The translations under genes and the position numbers were made by a program. The notes under the pieces were generated by a model, which was not told the DNA's origin, did not search any database, and saw only the letters and a program-made list of their open reading frames with translations. From assembly GCA_017475765.1 (NCBI GenBank), contig JAFVEY010000043.1, positions 1 to 42,889 on the forward strand: 42,889 nt of DNA. Direction: 5' to 3'. The stretch is from Clostridia bacterium. Its GTDB lineage: Bacteria > Bacillota > Clostridia > Oscillospirales > Acutalibacteraceae. This document shows, piece after piece, positions 14,529 through 42,889 of the stretch (the stretch's first letter is position 1; each line of letters begins with the position of its first letter).

Positions 14529-16424
14529 TTATTCCTCAGTCTTTCTCTTCTTCATGTAAACCACGAACAGGAAGCCTGCCAGCAGCACAACAGCTGCGCC
14601 GCCTACTGTAAACAGTACTGTACCCATTCCGCCTGTGCCGGGGAGAGAATCAGCCTTCGGATCTTTAACAACAATTGTATAGTCACCATGAGTAGAAGAG
14701 TTTGTATCTGTAAGCGATACAGTATCGCTTGTTGTCAGAGAAACTTGATAAGTGTTAAACTCTGTGTCTGTTTCTTCTTTAGCTTTTACTGTAAACGTAA
14801 TGTCACTAACAGTCCTGTGACCTGCAGGAGCTGTTGTTTCATGAAGGGTATAGGTACCGGGTGCAAGATAACCGAAATCAAATTTACCATTATTATCTGT
14901 TGTGAAGGTTGTAACCTGAGTCGGAGCATTCGAAGCAGCATCAGTATCTTCTGTTACGGTTGAATCTGTAATCGTGTAATACTTATTACCATTCTTATAT
15001 ACGGTCTTTGATATAACTTGGGATGTTTCTGTGTCTGTATATGTATATGTATAAATTTCATATACTACACCATTAACAACTTTTGTGGGATTAACATTAT
15101 TGCTGCCTTTTTTAAGTGTAAACACGGCACCTGCAAGCTTTATGGTTTCAGAATCTTTTTCTACCTTTTCAAGATCAATTTCGCCTACGTATGTTGTAAC
15201 TGTATCTTTTTTATTTGGTGTGGTAGGCTCATCAGGCTTATCATCTCCACCATCGGGATCTGCATAACCACCTGTTGAGAAGTTATTACCATATGTAAGA
15301 GTAGCTGTGTTCGGGTTACCTGTCTGACCTTGATGAGCTGTGTCATAATCAGCAACAGTTGCTGAACCTAAAACTGCGCTGTCACTAACTGTTGCTTTAA
15401 AGGTTACTGTAACATCAGCCTCTTCATTTGCCTGCACAACATAACCAGGAATCGTTACTGTAAAACCATCTGTTCCGGCTGGTCTTTTGACTTCAACTGA
15501 TTGAGCGGTTGCCGGTAAATGATTCGCACTATCTACTGAATCTTTAGCTACTGTACCTGCAGCAGTTGCAGCACCATTTGTATAAACAACTATGTCACCA
15601 AACTTTACAACAACATTAGCTCCAGCTTCAGTAAGGTCACTATTAATTGTAATACCCGATGAAGGATCATCTCGAATAATAAAGGGTTTTGTCTTTTCAC
15701 CTGTTACATCATCTGCATATTTAGGAAGTTTTGTCGTAATTGTATAGTCAACTTCAGAACCTTTTGTACCAACACTTGTATCACCAGTTGATGAGAGTTC
15801 TCCGGAAGTTGTACTCGTAATCTTCTTTTCAAATGGAAGGGGATTTGCTTTCGATGTAACTGTTGTTACAGAATCACCAGTAGATGTTATTGTAACAAGT
15901 GCAGGCTGAATAATAACATCCGTATCCGCTGATGTAGGAACAACAAGATAATAAGCTGTACCAGCAACTTCTGCTCCATCTGCAGCATCATTATCAAGTA
16001 TTACACCTGAAATATTCTCAGATTTAATTTTTTCATCTTCTACTGTCGCATCTTTATCAAGAACCAGATATTTAGCTACACTACTTGCACTAGTAGTCAA
16101 TTGTTTTTTAAGACTTCTTGCAAGTTCATTAACTTTTTCAGCCGACAAACTACTCAAATCCGAAAAATCAGTACTGTCAATAGTAGTAAAAGGAGTATTC
16201 CATGACCACACTTTTGTATCAGCATCCTGCTTTGCAACCTGATATACCTTTACATTACTAATAACATAATCGCCTTTAGTGCCTTCTGCTTTAATCTGGC
16301 TTACAACAATCGTTTTTGCGTCACCTGTCGCCGCATTAGCACTAAGACTGACCGCCCCCATGCTCAGGAGCATAGCCATTGAGAGAACTGCGACTCCTGC
16401 TCTTTTAAAAGTTTTCTTTTTCAT
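14529..16424 (-). CDS. LPXTG-anchored isopeptide-forming major (backbone) pilin
   Basis: 631 residues from the ATG at 16424 after GGAGGT; the upstream in-frame extension lies in the pseudoknot region. Signal peptide about 1-31 (VAVLSMAMLLSMGAVSLSANA). D1-type pilin domain, a SKANPLPFEKK segment in the place of the pilin-motif lysine (YPKN-like), a D2 domain, then a Cna-B/SpaA domain beginning IDLEKVEKDSETIKLAGAVF and ending with the E-box YTLHETTAPAGHR. The sorting signal SLPGTG (LPGTG about 594-598) is followed by a TM helix and MKKRKTEE. Known: such proteins form the covalent pilus shaft. A strong predicted RNA fold precedes it. Confidence 0.92.
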   Translation of the reverse strand: MKKKTFKRAGVAVLSMAMLLSMGAVSLSANAATGDAKTIVVSQIKAEGTKGDYVISNVKVYQVAKQDADTKVWSWNTPFTTIDSTDFSDLSSLSAEKVNELARSLKKQLTTSASSVAKYLVLDKDATVEDEKIKSENISGVILDNDAADGAEVAGTAYYLVVPTSADTDVIIQPALVTITSTGDSVTTVTSKANPLPFEKKITSTTSGELSSTGDTSVGTKGSEVDYTITTKLPKYADDVTGEKTKPFIIRDDPSSGITINSDLTEAGANVVVKFGDIVVYTNGAATAAGTVAKDSVDSANHLPATAQSVEVKRPAGTDGFTVTIPGYVVQANEEADVTVTFKATVSDSAVLGSATVADYDTAHQGQTGNPNTATLTYGNNFSTGGYADPDGGDDKPDEPTTPNKKDTVTTYVGEIDLEKVEKDSETIKLAGAVFTLKKGSNNVNPTKVVNGVVYEIYTYTYTDTETSQVISKTVYKNGNKYYTITDSTVTEDTDAASNAPTQVTTFTTDNNGKFDFGYLAPGTYTLHETTAPAGHRTVSDITFTVKAKEETDTEFNTYQVSLTTSDTVSLTDTNSSTHGDYTIVVKDPKADSLPGTGGMGTVLFTVGGAAVVLLAGFLFVVYMKKRKTEE

Positions 16425-16458
16425 AAGAATACCTCCAAATAATTTTGTGTTTTGTTTT

Positions 16459-16516
16459 TTTGCCGTGCGGTGGGTGGATATGGCAGCCGCACCGCACGGC
16501 AAACAAACTGCCATAT
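16459..16516 (-). other. Predicted H-type RNA pseudoknot upstream of the backbone pilin
   Basis: Two interleaved perfect helices: 16459-16472 with 16490-16503 (14 bp, core GCCGTGCGGTG) and 16478-16486 with 16508-16516 (9 bp, ATATGGCAG). They share no bases, so both can form at once as an H-type pseudoknot with loops of 4, 3 and 5 nt. It lies 38 bp after the tip-adhesin stop and 35 bp before the pilin ATG. No U run follows, so it is not an ordinary terminator. Confidence 0.65.
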
Positions 16517-16553
16517 TTTATTCCTGCGTTTTTTACTTCTTTTCTCTGCCGCT

Positions 16554-18692
16554 CTACCTCCCCCTGCTTTCAGTTATTTCAACTGTTGACAATTTCTTTT
16601 TGTATATCACAACCGCAATGCCTGAAAGCAGTATTGCGATAATGCCAAAGGGAAGTAGGAAGATCAGCGGGCTGCCGCCGGTTTCCGGCATGGTGATGGG
16701 TTCCACCTGATTTTTAACAGTTACTTTTTCGCCGTTGTCACTATCTATTGTTTGCAAAACAGTTGAATCCAAATTGTTGTATTCCACATTATTGGATGAT
16801 AACTTTTTATATCCGGATGGAATACTGCTGTCTATTTCCTCAACAGTATATGTAGTTCCATACGGTATACCGCTTATAGTAACTATACCATCACTAGGCT
16901 TGATCTTTACATCAAATGAATTATCCTCACCAATCACCGCACCTGTTGCAGTACCGCCCGAATGGTTATACGAAATTGCATAGTTTGAAACTGCTACACC
17001 TGTTGCCGGAGTAAGGCATACCCTAACAGTAAACTCTGTTGTATTTGTTGTATATTGAGTTGTACCATCCAAGTCATATAATTCCTTAACAAGTTGAATG
17101 TTGCCGGTTTTACGCTTATTAAATGCAATAGCCGTAGTATTTCCATCTATTTCGGTCGGATTGTCAGCTGTACCCAAATTTACAGAATAGTCAGAATTCA
17201 ATGTGTACATCTGGGTTGCATCATTACTACCAAGCTCTGTTATATAATACTTAGTACCCACAGGAATATTTTTGATCTCAATACTTTCTCCTGCTCTTAG
17301 CTCAAATGCATTATTAGCACCATCAATCTGTGCTAAGGTGCCTGATTCCGTAGTACCGTCAAGTTTTGTACGAATATACGGAACAGTATTATCCCTATAT
17401 TCTTCGTCACCAACCGTTGAACCGAATATATTGCTGAACACTATCTGGAACTTGAATGTTGTTGTAATATCTGTCACAGAGTCGCCTTCAAGTATTGCCT
17501 TCTGTACAACAAGATTAGCCAAATTCGGCTCATTTGCAAATACCTGACGAAGATGAACATATGCACTTTTTGAATCTGTCGGATCAGAAAAATTAAATTT
17601 CGTTACGATATTTCCATTGCTATCTTCAGCCTGAAGATTAATAATACCATAATTACTGTAATTCGTCGTACCTGAATACATAGTTTCAATGTGATTCATC
17701 GTAGTATTCTTAACATCATTACCGTTATACATACCTGCATATCTAGGTCTTATTGCATTTCCGGTATCCGTTGTGCTTTTGGTATACGTCTTGTAATATT
17801 TGCTGACAGTTCGCTCACTTGCTTGAGAATAACTGTCTCCGGCAGTACCTGTCGGTTTATATAGTGTGTCAAGCTGCGTTACCTTCATCTTGCTTCCTGT
17901 CTGGAACTGTTTCGAAATACTTGCAAGCTGCCCGTATTGTAAAGGAATAATACCATCAGTCAATGTATTGCGGTATACATTTGTTGAACCAAGATTATAA
18001 TTTGCAGTATTACTAACATTACTTGATGTAGTATTTAAAGCAAACGGATCGTTCATTCTATAAGTTACACCGCCACCAGAATCGTTCACAAGATACGAAT
18101 ATATCTCACCTTCTGTTTCATTATCTTGTTTGGTTCCTGGTGAAAACTTTTGCGAGGTTTTAGTCTGTTTATACACTGTTTTAGTCAATGTATAATTTGT
18201 ATCTGACCAAGATGTATTCCCTACATCAGTCCACACAACCTCATTCTTATTGTAAATATCAATAATATTGTCCGCACCCTGCATGTTTTTCAATTTGCCA
18301 TCTACATATGTCGTTATTAGTGTCACATGACTTGACCAATCACTCCAAGCATTTGTTGTAGTGCTATATTCTTTTGTATATGTTCCTTGTACTCGAACAA
18401 ATATTACTGTATTATATCTGTCATCATATGGAACTCTCCAAATATATTGGCTTGAATCCACTTCTGTTGCTGTAACATACTTTGCCTTATCAGTATCATT
18501 ATTAAACATATATGCTCCAACTACGCAACCATCATTTTTCCACCAACTTTTCGCCTTAAAATAGATATTGTCTATATCATTATAAGTAACAGTTGTAGGT
18601 GTTGTACTGATCGAATTCTGCCCACTCAAATCAGTAGTGAGATCAAGGCTTTGATCTGTATTTTTACGAGTTATATATTCATACGTGGGAAG
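16554..18692 (-). CDS. C-terminal half of the pilus tip adhesin (continues the N-terminal half after an in-frame TGA)
   Basis: About 712 codons in the same frame as the gene part ending at 18693, separated from it only by one TGA. No signal peptide is present, and the first possible start (TTG at 18629) has no ribosome-binding site, so this is not an independent gene. Contents: a carbohydrate-module-like stretch (IYFKAKSWWKNDGC ... YMFNNDTDKAKY), a long Thr/Ser/Asn-rich region, a Cna-B-like pair (IEIKNIPVGTKYYITELG; VTISGIPYGTTYTVEEID), and the sorting signal MPETGG with TM helix and YKKK tail. It carries the wall anchor that the N-terminal half lacks. Confidence 0.8.
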   Translation of the reverse strand, partial: LPTYEYITRKNTDQSLDLTTDLSGQNSISTTPTTVTYNDIDNIYFKAKSWWKNDGCVVGAYMFNNDTDKAKYVTATEVDSSQYIWRVPYDDRYNTVIFVRVQGTYTKEYSTTTNAWSDWSSHVTLITTYVDGKLKNMQGADNIIDIYNKNEVVWTDVGNTSWSDTNYTLTKTVYKQTKTSQKFSPGTKQDNETEGEIYSYLVNDSGGGVTYRMNDPFALNTTSSNVSNTANYNLGSTNVYRNTLTDGIIPLQYGQLASISKQFQTGSKMKVTQLDTLYKPTGTAGDSYSQASERTVSKYYKTYTKSTTDTGNAIRPRYAGMYNGNDVKNTTMNHIETMYSGTTNYSNYGIINLQAEDSNGNIVTKFNFSDPTDSKSAYVHLRQVFANEPNLANLVVQKAILEGDSVTDITTTFKFQIVFSNIFGSTVGDEEYRDNTVPYIRTKLDGTTESGTLAQIDGANNAFELRAGESIEIKNIPVGTKYYITELGSNDATQMYTLNSDYSVNLGTADNPTEIDGNTTAIAFNKRKTGNIQLVKELYDLDGTTQYTTNTTEFTVRVCLTPATGVAVSNYAISYNHSGGTATGAVIGEDNSFDVKIKPSDGIVTISGIPYGTTYTVEEIDSSIPSGYKKLSSNNVEYNNLDSTVLQTIDSDNGEKVTVKNQVEPITMPETGGSPLIFLLPFGIIAILLSGIAVVIYKKKLSTVEITESRGR

Positions 18693-37391: not shown

Positions 37392-37420
37392 TTGAAAAAT
37401 ATTGATAAAGTTGCTATAAT
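37392..37420 (+). promoter_or_regulatory. Promoter of the HSP90/TPR operon
   Basis: TTGAAA (37392-37397), 17-nt spacer, perfect TATAAT (37415-37420), 34 bp before the ATG. No CIRCE-type heat-shock operator is seen. Confidence 0.72.
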
Positions 37421-37454
37421 GATTATAAAAAATCTTCCGGAGTGAATTAGTTTT

Positions 37455-39248
37455 ATGAATAACGATTATAAATTCAAAGTAAATCTTGGCGGTATGATAG
37501 ATATTCTTTCCAATCATCTTTACAGCTCTCCGAATGTATTTGTTCGTGAGCTTCTCCAAAATGGAATTGATGCTATCAGCGCAAGAATTTTTTCTGACAA
37601 CGGTTTTGACTCTTCTGACGCAAAAATCGAAATTGAAGTTGTAAAAGGTGAAAAGATCATCTTCCGTGACAATGGAACAGGTCTTAATGAAGAAGAAATT
37701 CATCAATTTCTTTCGGTAATCGGTCAGTCATCAAAATACGATATTGAAAATAACCGATCAAACGGCGATTTTATCGGACGTTTCGGAATCGGTCTGCTCT
37801 CCTGCTTTATGGCAACAGACAGTATATGCGTGCGCACATCCTCCTTTAAAAACCCCGGTACCGCTCTTGAATGGCGTGGTATGGCTGACGGAACCTATAC
37901 TATTCATCAAATCAGCGAAAATATACCTGTCGGAACAGAAATCATTCTTGAAAACAACAAAAAAGAAAAGGACAGCGAGCTGATAGATGACTACTACACA
38001 AGCGAATCCATCTCTAATCTTGTTTACTACTATGGTCTGTTTCTGAAATACCCTGTCTATGTCATTGACGGTGGAGAAAAAACAAGATTGAATCTGAAAT
38101 TTGATTTTGATACCAAAAAGAATAAGGATGTTTGTATGCAGCTCGGAAAGACATTTCTCGGAGAGGAATTTCTCGACTGCTTCACACTCACATCCCAAAC
38201 CGGACTTTTTAACGGTATTGCTTATGTGCTGCCCTATCCCGTTGCCGCAAATGTACATAATATGCACAGAATATATCTGAAAAATATGCTTCTTACGGAA
38301 AGCGGAGAGAAATTGCTCCCCGAATGGGCATTCTTTATCAGATGTATCATCAATACCGACCATTTGAAACCGACCTCTTCCAGAGAGGATTTCTATGAAG
38401 ATGAGGATCTGGAGAAGGCAAGAAATGAAATTGCAGGCTGCATTGCAGACTATTTTGAAGAGCTTGATCTGCACAATAACGAGCTTCTTTATAAAATCGT
38501 CAGCATCCATAATCTTGCAGTAAAATCCGTCCTGTCCTCCTCCGAAGGAATGGACGATATTCTTCTTCCCTATATCCTGTTTGAAACCTCCCTCGGTGAA
38601 CTTTCGGGAAGAGATATCAGCGAATTCGGCGGTACTGCCTTCTACACACTTGATGTAAACCAGTTCAAACAGCTTGCACCGCTTTATACACAACGATCTG
38701 AGCTGCTGATCAATGCCGGATACGTTTATGAAGGTACCATTCTGCAGAAATTGGCTGAAACAAGCAGAAAAACCGATATTGAAAAACTCACAGAAAGCGA
38801 TATTGATTTTATGCTTGACGATTCTGAATTTGACGGCGATCCCGATGCTGAAAGACTTCTTTCATTGGCAGCAAAAATACTGAAAAAATATGATTGTAAG
38901 GCTTCCATAAAGGAATTTCGTCCGTTTGATATTCCTGCCCTTTATACTATCAATGAAAAGGCTTATGAGGCAAGGCAGATCCGCCGTTCAAAGGAAAATG
39001 CCAATGCTGTTTTTACAGATATGCTCAGTTCCTTTGAAGATGAGATCAATTCAAAGGCAATCGCCTGCCTGTATTTCAACACCAACAATCTTATCATCAG
39101 AAAACTAATTGACTGCAAGGACAAGGATAAAATCAGCTGCTATATCGAAATACTTTATGTTCAGTCACTACTTTCGGGACATTTTCCTCTGCTTAATAAC
39201 GAAATGAAAGTGCTGAACGAAAATCTGTACAAATTGATGGAATTCTGA
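37455..39248 (+). CDS. Divergent HSP90-family (HtpG-like) ATPase
   Basis: 597 residues, slightly shorter than HtpG. N-terminal GHKL ATPase: SNHLYSSPNVFVRELLQNGIDA (catalytic Glu32, Mg-binding Asn36), FRDNGTGL (Asp72), FLSVIGQSSK, GRFGIGLLSCF lid box (108-118). Middle domain with RIYLKNMLLTESGEKLLPEWAFFIRCIINTD and PTSSREDFYED, carrying the expected catalytic Arg310. The C-terminal third is not recognisably the HtpG dimerisation domain and ends KLMEF. Known: bacterial HtpG usually stands alone. Here it leads an operon with two TPR-like genes (14- and 23-bp gaps). GGAG upstream. Client unknown; a two-protein co-chaperone or adaptor arrangement is inferred. Confidence 0.88.
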   Translation: MNNDYKFKVNLGGMIDILSNHLYSSPNVFVRELLQNGIDAISARIFSDNGFDSSDAKIEIEVVKGEKIIFRDNGTGLNEEEIHQFLSVIGQSSKYDIENNRSNGDFIGRFGIGLLSCFMATDSICVRTSSFKNPGTALEWRGMADGTYTIHQISENIPVGTEIILENNKKEKDSELIDDYYTSESISNLVYYYGLFLKYPVYVIDGGEKTRLNLKFDFDTKKNKDVCMQLGKTFLGEEFLDCFTLTSQTGLFNGIAYVLPYPVAANVHNMHRIYLKNMLLTESGEKLLPEWAFFIRCIINTDHLKPTSSREDFYEDEDLEKARNEIAGCIADYFEELDLHNNELLYKIVSIHNLAVKSVLSSSEGMDDILLPYILFETSLGELSGRDISEFGGTAFYTLDVNQFKQLAPLYTQRSELLINAGYVYEGTILQKLAETSRKTDIEKLTESDIDFMLDDSEFDGDPDAERLLSLAAKILKKYDCKASIKEFRPFDIPALYTINEKAYEARQIRRSKENANAVFTDMLSSFEDEINSKAIACLYFNTNNLIIRKLIDCKDKDKISCYIEILYVQSLLSGHFPLLNNEMKVLNENLYKLMEF

Positions 39249-39261
39249 TTCAGGTGAAGCA

Positions 39262-40371
39262 ATGAATTTTTATGATTATAAGGAAAAATATTTTAAATTT
39301 CTTGAAAACGGCAGGCAGCGATGCAAAGGAATTCGCCTTGCAATTGATGCCGCATTGGAAACTCAGGATATTGACAATGCTTTAAGATTATATTATGAAT
39401 TTATTTCAGAGGATAATTTTGAATCCGACAGCTTTCAGGCTATCATCATATTCCCCGAATATCTGGCATTATTTGAAAAATATCCCGAATATCAGGATCA
39501 TCATGTAAGAAATCTGATGTGGGCATTCAAGTGGGTGGCAGGAAGCTCGGCGGATTTTTATCAGATACCTTTGCAACAGATATCGGATATTTACAGTCAG
39601 TATGAAAGCTACTGCACCAAATATCATTACAACAAACGCAGCCTTTACAGAAATATGTGGAATGATATGCTCAATCAGGGGATTGCTTCCTTTCCTCTTT
39701 CGCAAAGCATTACCGATTGTCATAAAAAGATGAATCAATATCCGAAAGACGGACTGAGCGAACCGGAATCCGGTGAAATTGATGATCTGGTAAAATATCT
39801 GCTCTTTGTTAAAAATGACATTGAGGCAGCCCTTGATACTGCTGAACCTATTTTTTCCGGCAGACAGTCCTGCAATGTTGTTCCGCATTATACCTACACC
39901 AATTTTGCAAAATATTATTTTGAAAACGGAGATATAGAAAGTGCCCGTTTTTTTGCGGAAAAAGCACTTCGTATTATTAACCGTGATTTCGGCGGAACAG
40001 AATCTATGGGACGCTACAAGGGGATGTGTATCTCGGTTTTTGCCTTCTGCAATATCCGTAAAAGCCTTAAATTTTTCAAAGGACAGATCAGGCACTATTA
40101 TACCAACCAATGCGGATTAGATAATTTCTATTTTTACAGGGGAGCATATCATTTGTTTATGCAGCTTGAAAAAAGCGGAGAGGACTGTGTCAGTCTGAAT
40201 TTTCCGTTGAGGGATGATGACATATATAGCGAAAGCGGAAAATATGCTGTATCTCAGCTTAAGGAATATTTCTTTGAAAAAACAAAATATATAGCTGACA
40301 GATTTGACGAAAGAAATCATAACTCTCATTTTAATTATATTCTTACAAAAGAATATCAATTCAATGAATAA
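39262..40371 (+). CDS. TPR-like helical protein, first paralogue of the HSP90 operon
   Basis: 369 residues, soluble, almost wholly helical. Starts FYDYKEKYFKFLENGRQRCKGIRLAID and carries repeat-like helix pairs (ALRLYYEFISED; YTYTNFAKYYFENGDIESARFFAEKALRIINRDFGG, a good TPR match). It ends ADRFDERNHNSHFNYILTKEY, closely parallel to the N-terminal half of the next gene, so the two arose by duplication. Known: TPR domains bind peptide tails, including those of HSP90 in eukaryotes. It could be a co-chaperone or client receptor for the HSP90 protein, which is inference. 14 bp after the HSP90 stop. Confidence 0.78.
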   Translation: MNFYDYKEKYFKFLENGRQRCKGIRLAIDAALETQDIDNALRLYYEFISEDNFESDSFQAIIIFPEYLALFEKYPEYQDHHVRNLMWAFKWVAGSSADFYQIPLQQISDIYSQYESYCTKYHYNKRSLYRNMWNDMLNQGIASFPLSQSITDCHKKMNQYPKDGLSEPESGEIDDLVKYLLFVKNDIEAALDTAEPIFSGRQSCNVVPHYTYTNFAKYYFENGDIESARFFAEKALRIINRDFGGTESMGRYKGMCISVFAFCNIRKSLKFFKGQIRHYYTNQCGLDNFYFYRGAYHLFMQLEKSGEDCVSLNFPLRDDDIYSESGKYAVSQLKEYFFEKTKYIADRFDERNHNSHFNYILTKEYQFNE

Positions 40372-40394
40372 AATTCAAACAAGGAGTGATATTA

Positions 40395-42512
40395 ATGGGA
40401 CTGAGTGAATATCAAAAGGAATTTTTTGACGGACTGCAACACGGTCTTCCAAGGCTAAAGGGTATCAAAAATGCTATTGATCATGCTTTGGAGCAACAGG
40501 ACACGGAGGGCGTTCTCGAACTCTATTATGAATATTTAGAGGAAGATGTGATTCATGGCAATTCCTATAAAGCGATTCTTATGTTCCCCGAATATGTGGG
40601 GTTCTTTGAAAAGCATCCGGAAGTACACGAGGATTATAACCATGATGTTATGTGGTCATATAAATGGATCCTCGGAAGTATCGAGGAATTTTATCAGATT
40701 CCGATGAGTCAGATAGAGAATATTTATAATCAGTATGTTGAATTCTGCAAGCGTTTCAATTACAGTCTGAGGTCATACTATAATATACTGTGGATGTTTA
40801 TTGACAGTTTTCTCGGTTCGGATCAGCAATTCTGCGGTCTGACAGCAAAGGAAGCCCATAAGAAAATGCTTCTTTCCAAAAGAGATAATCTTTGCGACTG
40901 CCGTGCCTGTGAAACTGCCGATGAGGTATATTATCATATCCATATTGAAAAGGATATGGAAAAGGGTCTTGAAATCGCAAAGCCTCTTCTTGAAGGCAGA
41001 CTGCACTGTACAAGCCAACCCCACGGAATGCTTGCCAATATAGCCGAAGCCTATCTTGAAGCCGGTGATCTTGAAAATGCCGATAAATATATCTCAAAGG
41101 CTGCAAGACTTATCAACAGGGATTTCGGAAACGAAGCCTCTCTTTTTACCAAAAAATCTCTGTGTATTCTCATACTTTCCTATGTTAAACCACAGGACGC
41201 AATGAGAATTTTCAGAAAAACACTTCCCTTTGTTCAGGAAAATGAAAGCGGCAATGAGCTTTTTGAATTTTATCGTGCTGCATACCATTTTATGGCTAAT
41301 CTTGAAGCCAATAATGTTGATATGATCAAATTAAAACTGCCCTTTAAAAATGACCCGATCTATCATGAGGATAATCTCTATAAACCCGGCGAGCTTAAAG
41401 ATTACTTCTATGAAAAGGCAAAGGAATATGCCGACAAATTTGATAAGAGAAACGGCAACAGCTTATTCAATCAAAGACTCGAACAAAAATATGAGCCCAA
41501 TTATGATAAGTATGTTCCGTATGAAGAAGCTCCCGACTGTCCTTATCTTGATTACATAAGAGAAAATATGGAGGATGGTAAGCTGCCATCAGATTTCTCC
41601 CTTCCGAATCCCGATAAGGATGATGAAGGCAACAGATATGATGACGGCGCCATGGACGGAATCCTTTTTTACCATTCCCACGCAGAGAAAAACGAACTGG
41701 GAGAACTGGAACAGATACTAGACCTTGCGGCAAAAGGTTCAGATACGGCTGCGGCTGCAAAAACCGAAAAATATCTGGAAAAGACAGGGTACAAAGCGCT
41801 GACACTTATAGATAATCTTCAGAATTATATTCTCTCACACACAGATAAGCTGCCTGCAAATGCAATTTACAGCTTTGCCATAGAGCTGACTGTCGCATCA
41901 AGAAATAAAGAGGCTGTCAAGCTCGGTCTTTCTATTTTAGAAATATTCTCCGATTATAACGATGCACTTCTGGAAGCGATAATGGATCTTGCAAGATGTG
42001 ATGAATTTTCTCTGTTCTGTATATGGGCAGTCAAAAATCTTGAAAACGGAAATGATCTCATTTTCCAGATTGCAAAGGACACCTTCGGTTGGGGAAGAAT
42101 TTTTGCCATCAATCAGCTTGAGCCAACAACAGATGAAATAAAATCGTGGCTTCTGCAGGAAGGAATCAAAAACAACATTTATTCGGGATATTCCGCCATT
42201 GCCGTTTTCCAGAAGGCTGATATCCACAAGCTGCTTGAAGATGGTCTTCCCCAGGAGCAGCTTACGCCTGTCGGCGCTGATATTGCCTATCTGATTCTTG
42301 ATGGTCCGACGATCGGAATCAAAGCATTTGAGGACGGAGAAAACATTGTCAATATGTATCTTGACAGCGCCGAAAAGCTGGAGATTGAGGAGATAGACCG
42401 CAGTATTCTGCAGATCATTGGTGCAAATTATGATAATGAAGCTGTAAGGACAAGAATAAGAGAAATGGGCATTGAGTTTGAAATAGCAGAAAAAGAAACC
42501 GAAGAGGAATAA
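40395..42512 (+). CDS. Large TPR/HEAT-like helical protein, second paralogue of the HSP90 operon
   Basis: 705 residues from the ATG at 40395 after AAGGAG; a GTG three codons earlier overlaps that site. Residues 1-370 align by eye with the preceding gene (RLKGIKNAIDHALEQQD; AEAYLEAGDLENADKYISKAARLINRDFG; ADKFDKRNGNSLFNQRLEQKY). A Pro/Asp-rich hinge (about 375-425) leads to a second helical domain (about 430-700) of HEAT-like pairs such as LGLSILEIFSDYNDALLEAIMDLARCDE. Ends in an acidic EKETEEE tail. No catalytic motif. Probably the scaffold or client-binding partner of the HSP90 protein. Confidence 0.78.
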   Translation: MGLSEYQKEFFDGLQHGLPRLKGIKNAIDHALEQQDTEGVLELYYEYLEEDVIHGNSYKAILMFPEYVGFFEKHPEVHEDYNHDVMWSYKWILGSIEEFYQIPMSQIENIYNQYVEFCKRFNYSLRSYYNILWMFIDSFLGSDQQFCGLTAKEAHKKMLLSKRDNLCDCRACETADEVYYHIHIEKDMEKGLEIAKPLLEGRLHCTSQPHGMLANIAEAYLEAGDLENADKYISKAARLINRDFGNEASLFTKKSLCILILSYVKPQDAMRIFRKTLPFVQENESGNELFEFYRAAYHFMANLEANNVDMIKLKLPFKNDPIYHEDNLYKPGELKDYFYEKAKEYADKFDKRNGNSLFNQRLEQKYEPNYDKYVPYEEAPDCPYLDYIRENMEDGKLPSDFSLPNPDKDDEGNRYDDGAMDGILFYHSHAEKNELGELEQILDLAAKGSDTAAAAKTEKYLEKTGYKALTLIDNLQNYILSHTDKLPANAIYSFAIELTVASRNKEAVKLGLSILEIFSDYNDALLEAIMDLARCDEFSLFCIWAVKNLENGNDLIFQIAKDTFGWGRIFAINQLEPTTDEIKSWLLQEGIKNNIYSGYSAIAVFQKADIHKLLEDGLPQEQLTPVGADIAYLILDGPTIGIKAFEDGENIVNMYLDSAEKLEIEEIDRSILQIIGANYDNEAVRTRIREMGIEFEIAEKETEEE

Positions 42513-42520
42513 AAAAACAA

Positions 42521-42566
42521 GTCCCTGCTGCTGAATGTATCGGCGGCAGGGATCTGTTTTTTCTTG
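42521..42566 (+). terminator. Terminator of the HSP90/TPR operon
   Basis: Stem TCCCTGCTG / CGGCAGGGA (42522-42530, 42544-42552, one G-U), then TCTGTTTTTT, 8 bp past the stop. Confidence 0.8.
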
Positions 42567-42610: not shown

Positions 42611-42889
42611 TCAGTTGTACATAGCAAGCAGACCTTCAATTTCAATTTCAGACATTCCAAGCATATCAGAAAGTTGTTTGACAGAATTGCCCAGTTCAAT
42701 GAGTTTTTTCAGTAATTCCGCCTTACCTCTTGCTTCACCTCTTGCTTCACCTCTTGCTTCACCTCTTGCTTCACCTCTTGCTTCACTTTCTTTTCTTACA
42801 GCGATATCATACTGTTCACGCTGAGCCTGCTCATCAAATAAATCTGACAACATAGTTACTACCTCCTGTTTGTGTTGATTAAGAAAATC
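42611..42889 (-). CDS. C-terminal fragment of an Rpn-family-like protein (5' end beyond the window)
   Basis: Although an ATG at 42853 has AGGAGG before it, the frame stays open to the window edge: DFLNQHKQEVVTM continues in-frame, and the apparent ribosome-binding site is just the codons for QEVV. A longer gene running out of the window is therefore more likely. Visible: a charged helix (LSDLFDEQAQREQYDIAVRKE), five EARG repeats, and a C-terminal helix pair (LLKKLIELGNSVKQLSDMLG) of the kind seen at Rpn/transposase-like C-termini. The nuclease domain is outside the window. Confidence 0.6.
   Translation of the reverse strand, partial: DFLNQHKQEVVTMLSDLFDEQAQREQYDIAVRKESEARGEARGEARGEARGEARGKAELLKKLIELGNSVKQLSDMLGMSEIEIEGLLAMYN
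42726..42785 (-). repeat. Five tandem 12-bp in-frame repeats (EARG)
   Basis: Five identical 12-bp units (CCTCTTGCTTCA on the forward strand) encode EARG in the reverse-strand gene. The lack of synonymous change between copies suggests recent expansion by slippage. Confidence 0.92.

Follow-up and report, generated by a model that had tools for sequence, protein, structure and literature searches.

In eukaryotes, the chaperone Hsp90 works with tetratricopeptide repeat (TPR) co-chaperones (Hop/Sti1, FKBP51, CHIP), and the EEVD sequence is the C-terminal peptide through which Hsp90 docks to the TPR carboxylate clamp. For bacterial Hsp90, a 2021 article states that no cochaperones taking part in protein remodelling had been identified (PMC7926864), and another article reports no apparent orthologues of Hop, Aha1, or p23 for HtpG (PMC8082187). 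In Chen et al. 2006 (PMC1525184), HTPG is divided into groups A, B, and C, two copies of different groups being present in some bacteria, e.g., Streptomyces coelicolor; their main text makes no mention of TPR. In the present work we analyzed a stretch of 42,889 nucleotides (hereafter the window; contig JAFVEY010000043.1 of the Clostridia bacterium assembly GCA_017475765.1), where an Hsp90 gene is followed by two genes for TPR-superhelix proteins. The three genes probably encode a bacterial Hsp90 machine of the NF010683 type with a dedicated TPR-superhelix co-chaperone or client adaptor. This partnership is apparently widespread in bacteria; the Hsp90 family is a known one whereas the partner is apparently undescribed. 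No account of the Hsp90-TPR pair and no studied function for NF010683 Hsp90s were found in titles and the starts of abstracts, a collection from which subscription journals were mostly missing and which did not cover preprints.

The three genes lie on the same strand, the Hsp90 gene first and the two TPR paralogues after it, within positions 37392 to 42566 of the window, as follows:

37392 to 37420, plus strand: promoter-like site, TTGAAA-17-TATAAT with an extended -10 (TG ahead of the second hexamer), a consensus match only
37455 to 39248, plus strand: Hsp90 of the NF010683/PRK14083 branch, 597 residues, ATPase residues intact, without EEVD tail
39262 to 40371, plus strand: TPR-superhelix partner A (protein 2), 369 residues, with Cys204 present and Pro168 and Gly171 replacing two family cysteines
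40395 to 42512, plus strand: TPR-superhelix partner B (protein 3), 705 residues from ATG
42521 to 42553, plus strand: intrinsic terminator-like hairpin of 14 pairs, including 8 G-C, followed by a T run

A self-contained operon with promoter, three genes, and terminator had been proposed in the initial annotation and was confirmed, the first intergenic gap being 13 nucleotides instead of 14 and the second 23 nucleotides when counted to the ATG at 40395. This ATG, with AAGGAG 8 nucleotides ahead of it, is the likelier start of gene 3; a GTG at 40386 would give a protein of 708 residues (40386 to 42512). The promoter-like site was the sole 11-of-12 match among 29 promoter-like sites (shuffles: 18.5 ± 4.1), and it was not visibly conserved upstream of the operon in 10 close relatives. 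A few rigid patterns gave no CIRCE, CtsR, or SigB-like match between about 400 nucleotides upstream and 120 nucleotides inside the 87 Hsp90 genes of the survey described below.

The window Hsp90 scored 585 bits against NCBIfam NF010683 (PRK14083, 'HSP90 family protein'; cut-off 455), its residues 3-596 aligning with positions 4-593 of the 604 in the profile, so that the chaperone, taken at first to be undescribed, belongs to a known family. That entry covers the Hsp90 only, and the TPR proteins of the window fall outside it. With canonical HtpG (NF003555) the protein shares the three-domain Hsp90 fold; its score of 161.6 bits was nevertheless under the HtpG cut-off of 371, it belongs to a separate branch, and an HtpG-type gene is also present in the same genome (contig C40). 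The branch probably corresponds to one of the groups of Chen et al. other than A. Glu32, Asp72, the glycine-rich lid (residues 108-113), and Arg310 were invariant in 87/87 family members, in agreement with the intact ATPase residues noted at first sight. The C-terminal third is divergent in sequence, as had been observed, whereas its supposed remodelling was not supported, since the predicted model aligned over residues 8-597 to whole Hsp90s and all three domains are kept. None of the 86 complete Hsp90 C-termini ended in EEVD or in [DE][DE]x[DE]. The bacterial branch thus resembles the eukaryotic systems in joining Hsp90 to a TPR-superhelix partner and differs from them in its missing EEVD tail (86/86) and in its partner, a superhelix of 17 helices; as 0/86 Hsp90s end in EEVD, docking must differ from the mode of Hop and FKBP51.

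The gene neighbourhood was surveyed in 87 Hsp90 loci, namely the window, six loci from phage or plasmid records, and 80 obtained by scanning species genomes; the latter were the 80 relatives, out of 587, most similar to the window Hsp90 and not a random sample, and part of them came from genomes also included in the genus survey below. Eleven plasmid records presented at least 80% Hsp90 coverage, of which five were fetched; the other six stayed outside the 87-locus count, namely H36, another record from Listeria in which a TPR match likewise adjoins the Hsp90, and H41-H45 (21-24% identity). Of five phage records with the same coverage, one was fetched, and H15 (a short piece from Listeria) and H18-H20 were also left out of the count. 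With a profile made from 73 of the TPR proteins at the surveyed loci, a TPR-family gene was found in 76/87 loci (in L080 as a 94-residue piece only), and with plain blastp in 74/87. It lay downstream on the same strand in 75 of the 76 loci and upstream in L067. The gap ranged from -60 to +60 nucleotides in 63 of the 75 downstream pairs, -4 and -8 being the commonest values when the first possible codon is taken as the start. The same gene order appeared in loci of six phyla.

Eleven loci had no TPR gene beside the Hsp90. Four of them (L050, L060, L095, and L123) are cut by the contig end, which comes within 163 nucleotides of the Hsp90, and seven (L055, L061, L062, L066, L087, L091, and L120) are real exceptions; the TPR family was found elsewhere in the genome for all seven real exceptions and for three of the cut loci, L123 being the one left over. 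A search that began with protein 3 instead of the Hsp90 gave matches in 11 plasmid records, six through the TPR domain and five through the C-terminal domain only. Hsp90 adjoined the TPR gene in five of those six (Listeria monocytogenes twice, Paenibacillus, and two Streptomyces).

Whole genomes displayed the same association. In the phylum of the window (398 genomes), an NF010683 match over the cut-off and a TPR match with E < 1e-100 occurred in the same six genomes, with the genes adjacent in 6/6; weak partial TPR matches in six other genomes (E 4e-4 to 4e-7) were set aside as generic repeats. The 149 genomes from the phylum of the planctomycete Schlesneria (genome G254, locus L095) gave again both families in the same six (TPR E ≤ 4e-64), six weak TPR matches (E 4e-5 to 9e-4) being set aside. 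Concerning gene placement, the two genes were adjacent in G693 and G696, neighbours across a contig end in G254, in reversed order in G728, and on different contigs in G667. Two further Hsp90-type genes of this phylum, one in G786 (L181) and a second one in G254 (L182), encode proteins scoring between HtpG and NF010683, below the NF010683 cut-off, and perhaps represent a further Hsp90 branch. Among 64 genomes of the window's genus, Hsp90 was found in 22 (21 over the cut-off and one cut by a contig end), all 22 with the TPR family, and 40 genomes contained neither. Counting the window's own genome once, 33 of the 610 genomes had both families, two the TPR only, none the Hsp90 only, and 575 neither (Fisher P = 1.5e-52, uncorrected for kinship). 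Hsp90 and its TPR partner are inherited together. Among 14 named controls, the TPR family, as phrog_34905, was present only in Corynebacterium glutamicum and Deinobacterium chartae, the same two that passed the NF010683 cut-off. In the order of the window (245 genomes), some Hsp90 match occurred in 189 and a TPR match, by a single-sequence search, in the window's own genome only; this indicated that the TPR family is tied to the NF010683-type branch and not to Hsp90 at large.

These counts agree with the proposal of the initial annotation that the TPR proteins are dedicated partners, since TPR homologues were not usually found away from an Hsp90 gene: 76/87 Hsp90 loci contained one, in 5/6 plasmid records the two genes adjoined, and only two of the 610 genomes departed from joint occurrence. 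That the genes are neighbours by accident, without any functional link, is already disfavoured by the co-occurrence counts. The seven loci without adjacency and the two genomes with TPR only are all that speaks for it, whereas both families were present in 33/33 Hsp90-bearing genomes and the gene order was the same in loci of six phyla; of all the explanations considered this one is the least credible. A better candidate, though still an improbable one, is that the TPR protein is an obligate client and that Hsp90 mainly folds or holds it, the TPR protein then working by binding other proteins. This would account equally well for an Hsp90 that is never without TPR, and the TPR rows were somewhat more variable (mean column identity of 32% in alignment A3 vs. 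39% for Hsp90 in A4). Against it, TPR homologues without Hsp90, although divergent, occurred in 2/64 congeneric genomes.

Several observations count against a dedicated co-chaperone or adaptor. The two TPR-only genomes just mentioned, G798 (L183) and G843 (L184), have TPR proteins with E of 1e-59 and 3e-55 and no NF010683 Hsp90. The TPR copy in the genome of L087 is broken, and those in the genomes of L091 and L120 are divergent (E 6e-58 and 8e-55, near the level of the homologues in G798 and G843), so that they may not be true partners. No TPR was found in the genome of L123, the Hsp90 contig of which ends at the gene. About 8 kb separates the Hsp90 gene from the TPR gene in G756, the TPR gene precedes that of the Hsp90 in L067 and G728, and in an Actinomyces oris plasmid, the sixth TPR-domain record, the TPR protein had no Hsp90 within about 7 kb. 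Moreover, the surveyed genomes are related, and the P values of co-occurrence consequently overstate the evidence. Separately, L184 also contains several unidentified genes, one of which we take from its appearance to be a dynamin-type GTPase.

The TPR proteins reached no Pfam cut-off and matched no NCBIfam model at E ≤ 1. The partner was predicted as a superhelix of 17 helices, with a predicted local distance difference test (pLDDT) value of 94.9; TPR superhelices led the matches in a fold search with residues 1-370 of protein 3, and among solved structures the profile of the partner found repeat matches only. MalT domain III, Rap proteins, and the TPR chain 5a31_O of the anaphase-promoting complex (APC/C) resemble the predicted fold of these residues, the likeness being restricted to the repeat fold, with 7 to 13% identity among the matches listed. 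Such a likeness would suit a signalling module, an explanation that we regard as quite unlikely: the TPR protein would act as sensor and regulator in the manner of MalT domain III or Rap proteins, held in readiness by Hsp90 much as receptors are in eukaryotes. Pfam gave no DNA-binding or phosphatase effector domain on the TPR partner, and similarity of fold does not by itself establish a function. A pattern scan of viral contigs revealed no relative of protein 3, nor did a viral fold library at E ≤ 0.001.

In protein 3, a TPR domain (residues ~1-370, with all three cysteines described below) is followed by a second all-helical domain (~387-700) and a short acidic tail. The tail is present, as had been noticed, and its conservation is not tight: 2 to 11 of the last 15 residues were acidic across 19 long forms, L071 having been set aside from an initial 20, as its C-terminal part matches a transporter family. 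Stand-alone proteins related by sequence to the C-terminal helical domain (window 41574-42512) occur in Rhizobium, Nonomuraea, and Streptomyces (L042, L043, and L044), where no Hsp90 match was found within the fetched stretches.

The two helical proteins of the window are duplicates, as initially annotated, with 38% identity between the paralogues. The idea that a pair is the basic design was not supported, one TPR gene being present in 57 of the 76 loci, two in 13, and three in six. In a 62-row TPR tree the two Listeria copies were sisters and the window copies split inside an 11-row clade of the window's relatives, which implies that TPR pairs arose more than once; the pairs are later duplications. 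Cys168 and Cys171 (protein 2 numbering) were both present in 55 of 73 short TPR proteins, one of the two in a single protein, and neither in 17, and all 55 proteins having both also had Cys204. This three-cysteine set (CxxC plus one) occurred in 81 of the 101 TPR-family frames from the 76 loci. Loci with a single TPR displayed it in 53/57 cases (exceptions: L056, L067, L083, and the L080 piece). Where a locus has more than one TPR gene (19 loci), the final copy always had the set, and in 14 of these loci the first copy was without it; the window fits this pattern, protein 2 being without the set and protein 3 with it. Such a distribution suggests that the cysteines form a metal or redox site and that the copies have divided their tasks. 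The partners in Streptomyces, L040, and L041 are about 1000 residues long, and further TPRs lie downstream in L037, L040, and L041 (three checked by Pfam). In L063, L064, and L065 a gene of about 275 residues stands between the TPR genes, and that of L064, the one searched, begins with a MazE-type antitoxin domain. As regards fusions of Hsp90 with TPR, the single long frame inspected (L177, 1099 residues) contained a recognised Hsp90 only.

In the mechanism we propose, the Hsp90 dimer would pass through the ATP-driven clamp cycle usual for Hsp90s, and the TPR protein would bind its middle or C-terminal part, no EEVD peptide being used, and would then either hold and deliver clients or time the clamp. 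In the lineage of the window the TPR gene was duplicated, copy A losing two of the three conserved cysteines and copy B keeping the three and carrying the extra helical domain; because of these differences, the two copies probably serve different clients or steps. On a wider scale, we consider it somewhat more plausible than its contrary that in at least seven phyla an Hsp90 machine relies on a TPR co-chaperone of its own, that it arose independently of the eukaryotic systems and without an EEVD tail, and that it diversified by TPR duplication, by loss of the three cysteines as a set from the first copy, and by a second helical domain in the last one. The seven phyla are the six with adjacent genes plus that of Deinobacterium chartae, which we presume to be a seventh. 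The TPR family, coupled to a single branch of Hsp90 in different phyla, constitutes a concrete candidate for a bacterial Hsp90 cochaperone, present in easily handled organisms such as Corynebacterium glutamicum, offers a handle on the clients of NF010683 Hsp90s, and opens the question of whether the TPR help of Hsp90 arose twice.

No client gene recurred beside the operon. When the neighbours in the 87 loci were clustered, no family reached more than six of the 32 sequence clades and the distances were scattered, and Pfam on 140 of the 142 neighbours from 32 loci (two long ones being left out) gave no family in more than four. Since no other gene recurs nearby, the client genes probably lie at other sites in the genome, and a role in defence is unlikely. 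An anti-phage defence module, also suggested in the initial annotation, would find support in the patchy distribution (6/398 and 6/149 genomes), in the phage-protein families phrog_32952 and phrog_34905, which match Hsp90 and the TPR proteins, and in strong matches to defence models by single neighbours (PDC-S18, 1e-141; PD-T4-6, 3e-83; mad6, 5e-78; one each). Nevertheless, no defence family matched more than 3/140 neighbours, the TPR proteins matched no PADLOC model at E ≤ 1, and Hsp90 was matched by its N-terminal ATPase part only (TmtA and restriction enzymes, best 5e-10). The annotated Listeria record L036 (NZ_LR134399.1), labelled as a plasmid, shows ordinary chromosome-type genes (fri, queG, and trmL) around the operon, and the short unannotated 'Listeria phage' records OR847793 and OR849496 may accordingly be host DNA. 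The suggestion of defence was not supported; it seems very improbable, slightly more so than a signalling module, and the Hsp90-TPR machine would rather be engaged in general protein care.

The Listeria Hsp90 gene of the NF010683 branch appears to be lmo0942, which adjoins fri according to PMC3534079 and figures among the heat-shock genes listed in PMC10393277. From the gene order, the first Listeria TPR partner would be lmo0941, for which PMC6901971 reports signs of selection and which it describes as hypothetical and of unknown function.

Elsewhere in the window, a short frame on the minus strand (42611-42853) with tandem 'EARG' repeats (GCTTCACCT units) and without Pfam match resembles what we assume to be the tail end of a mobile-element gene. 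Two adjoining surface-protein-like genes were found at 14529-18629, also on the minus strand, one with SpaA and an LPXTG anchor and the other with DUF7601 and DUF5979.

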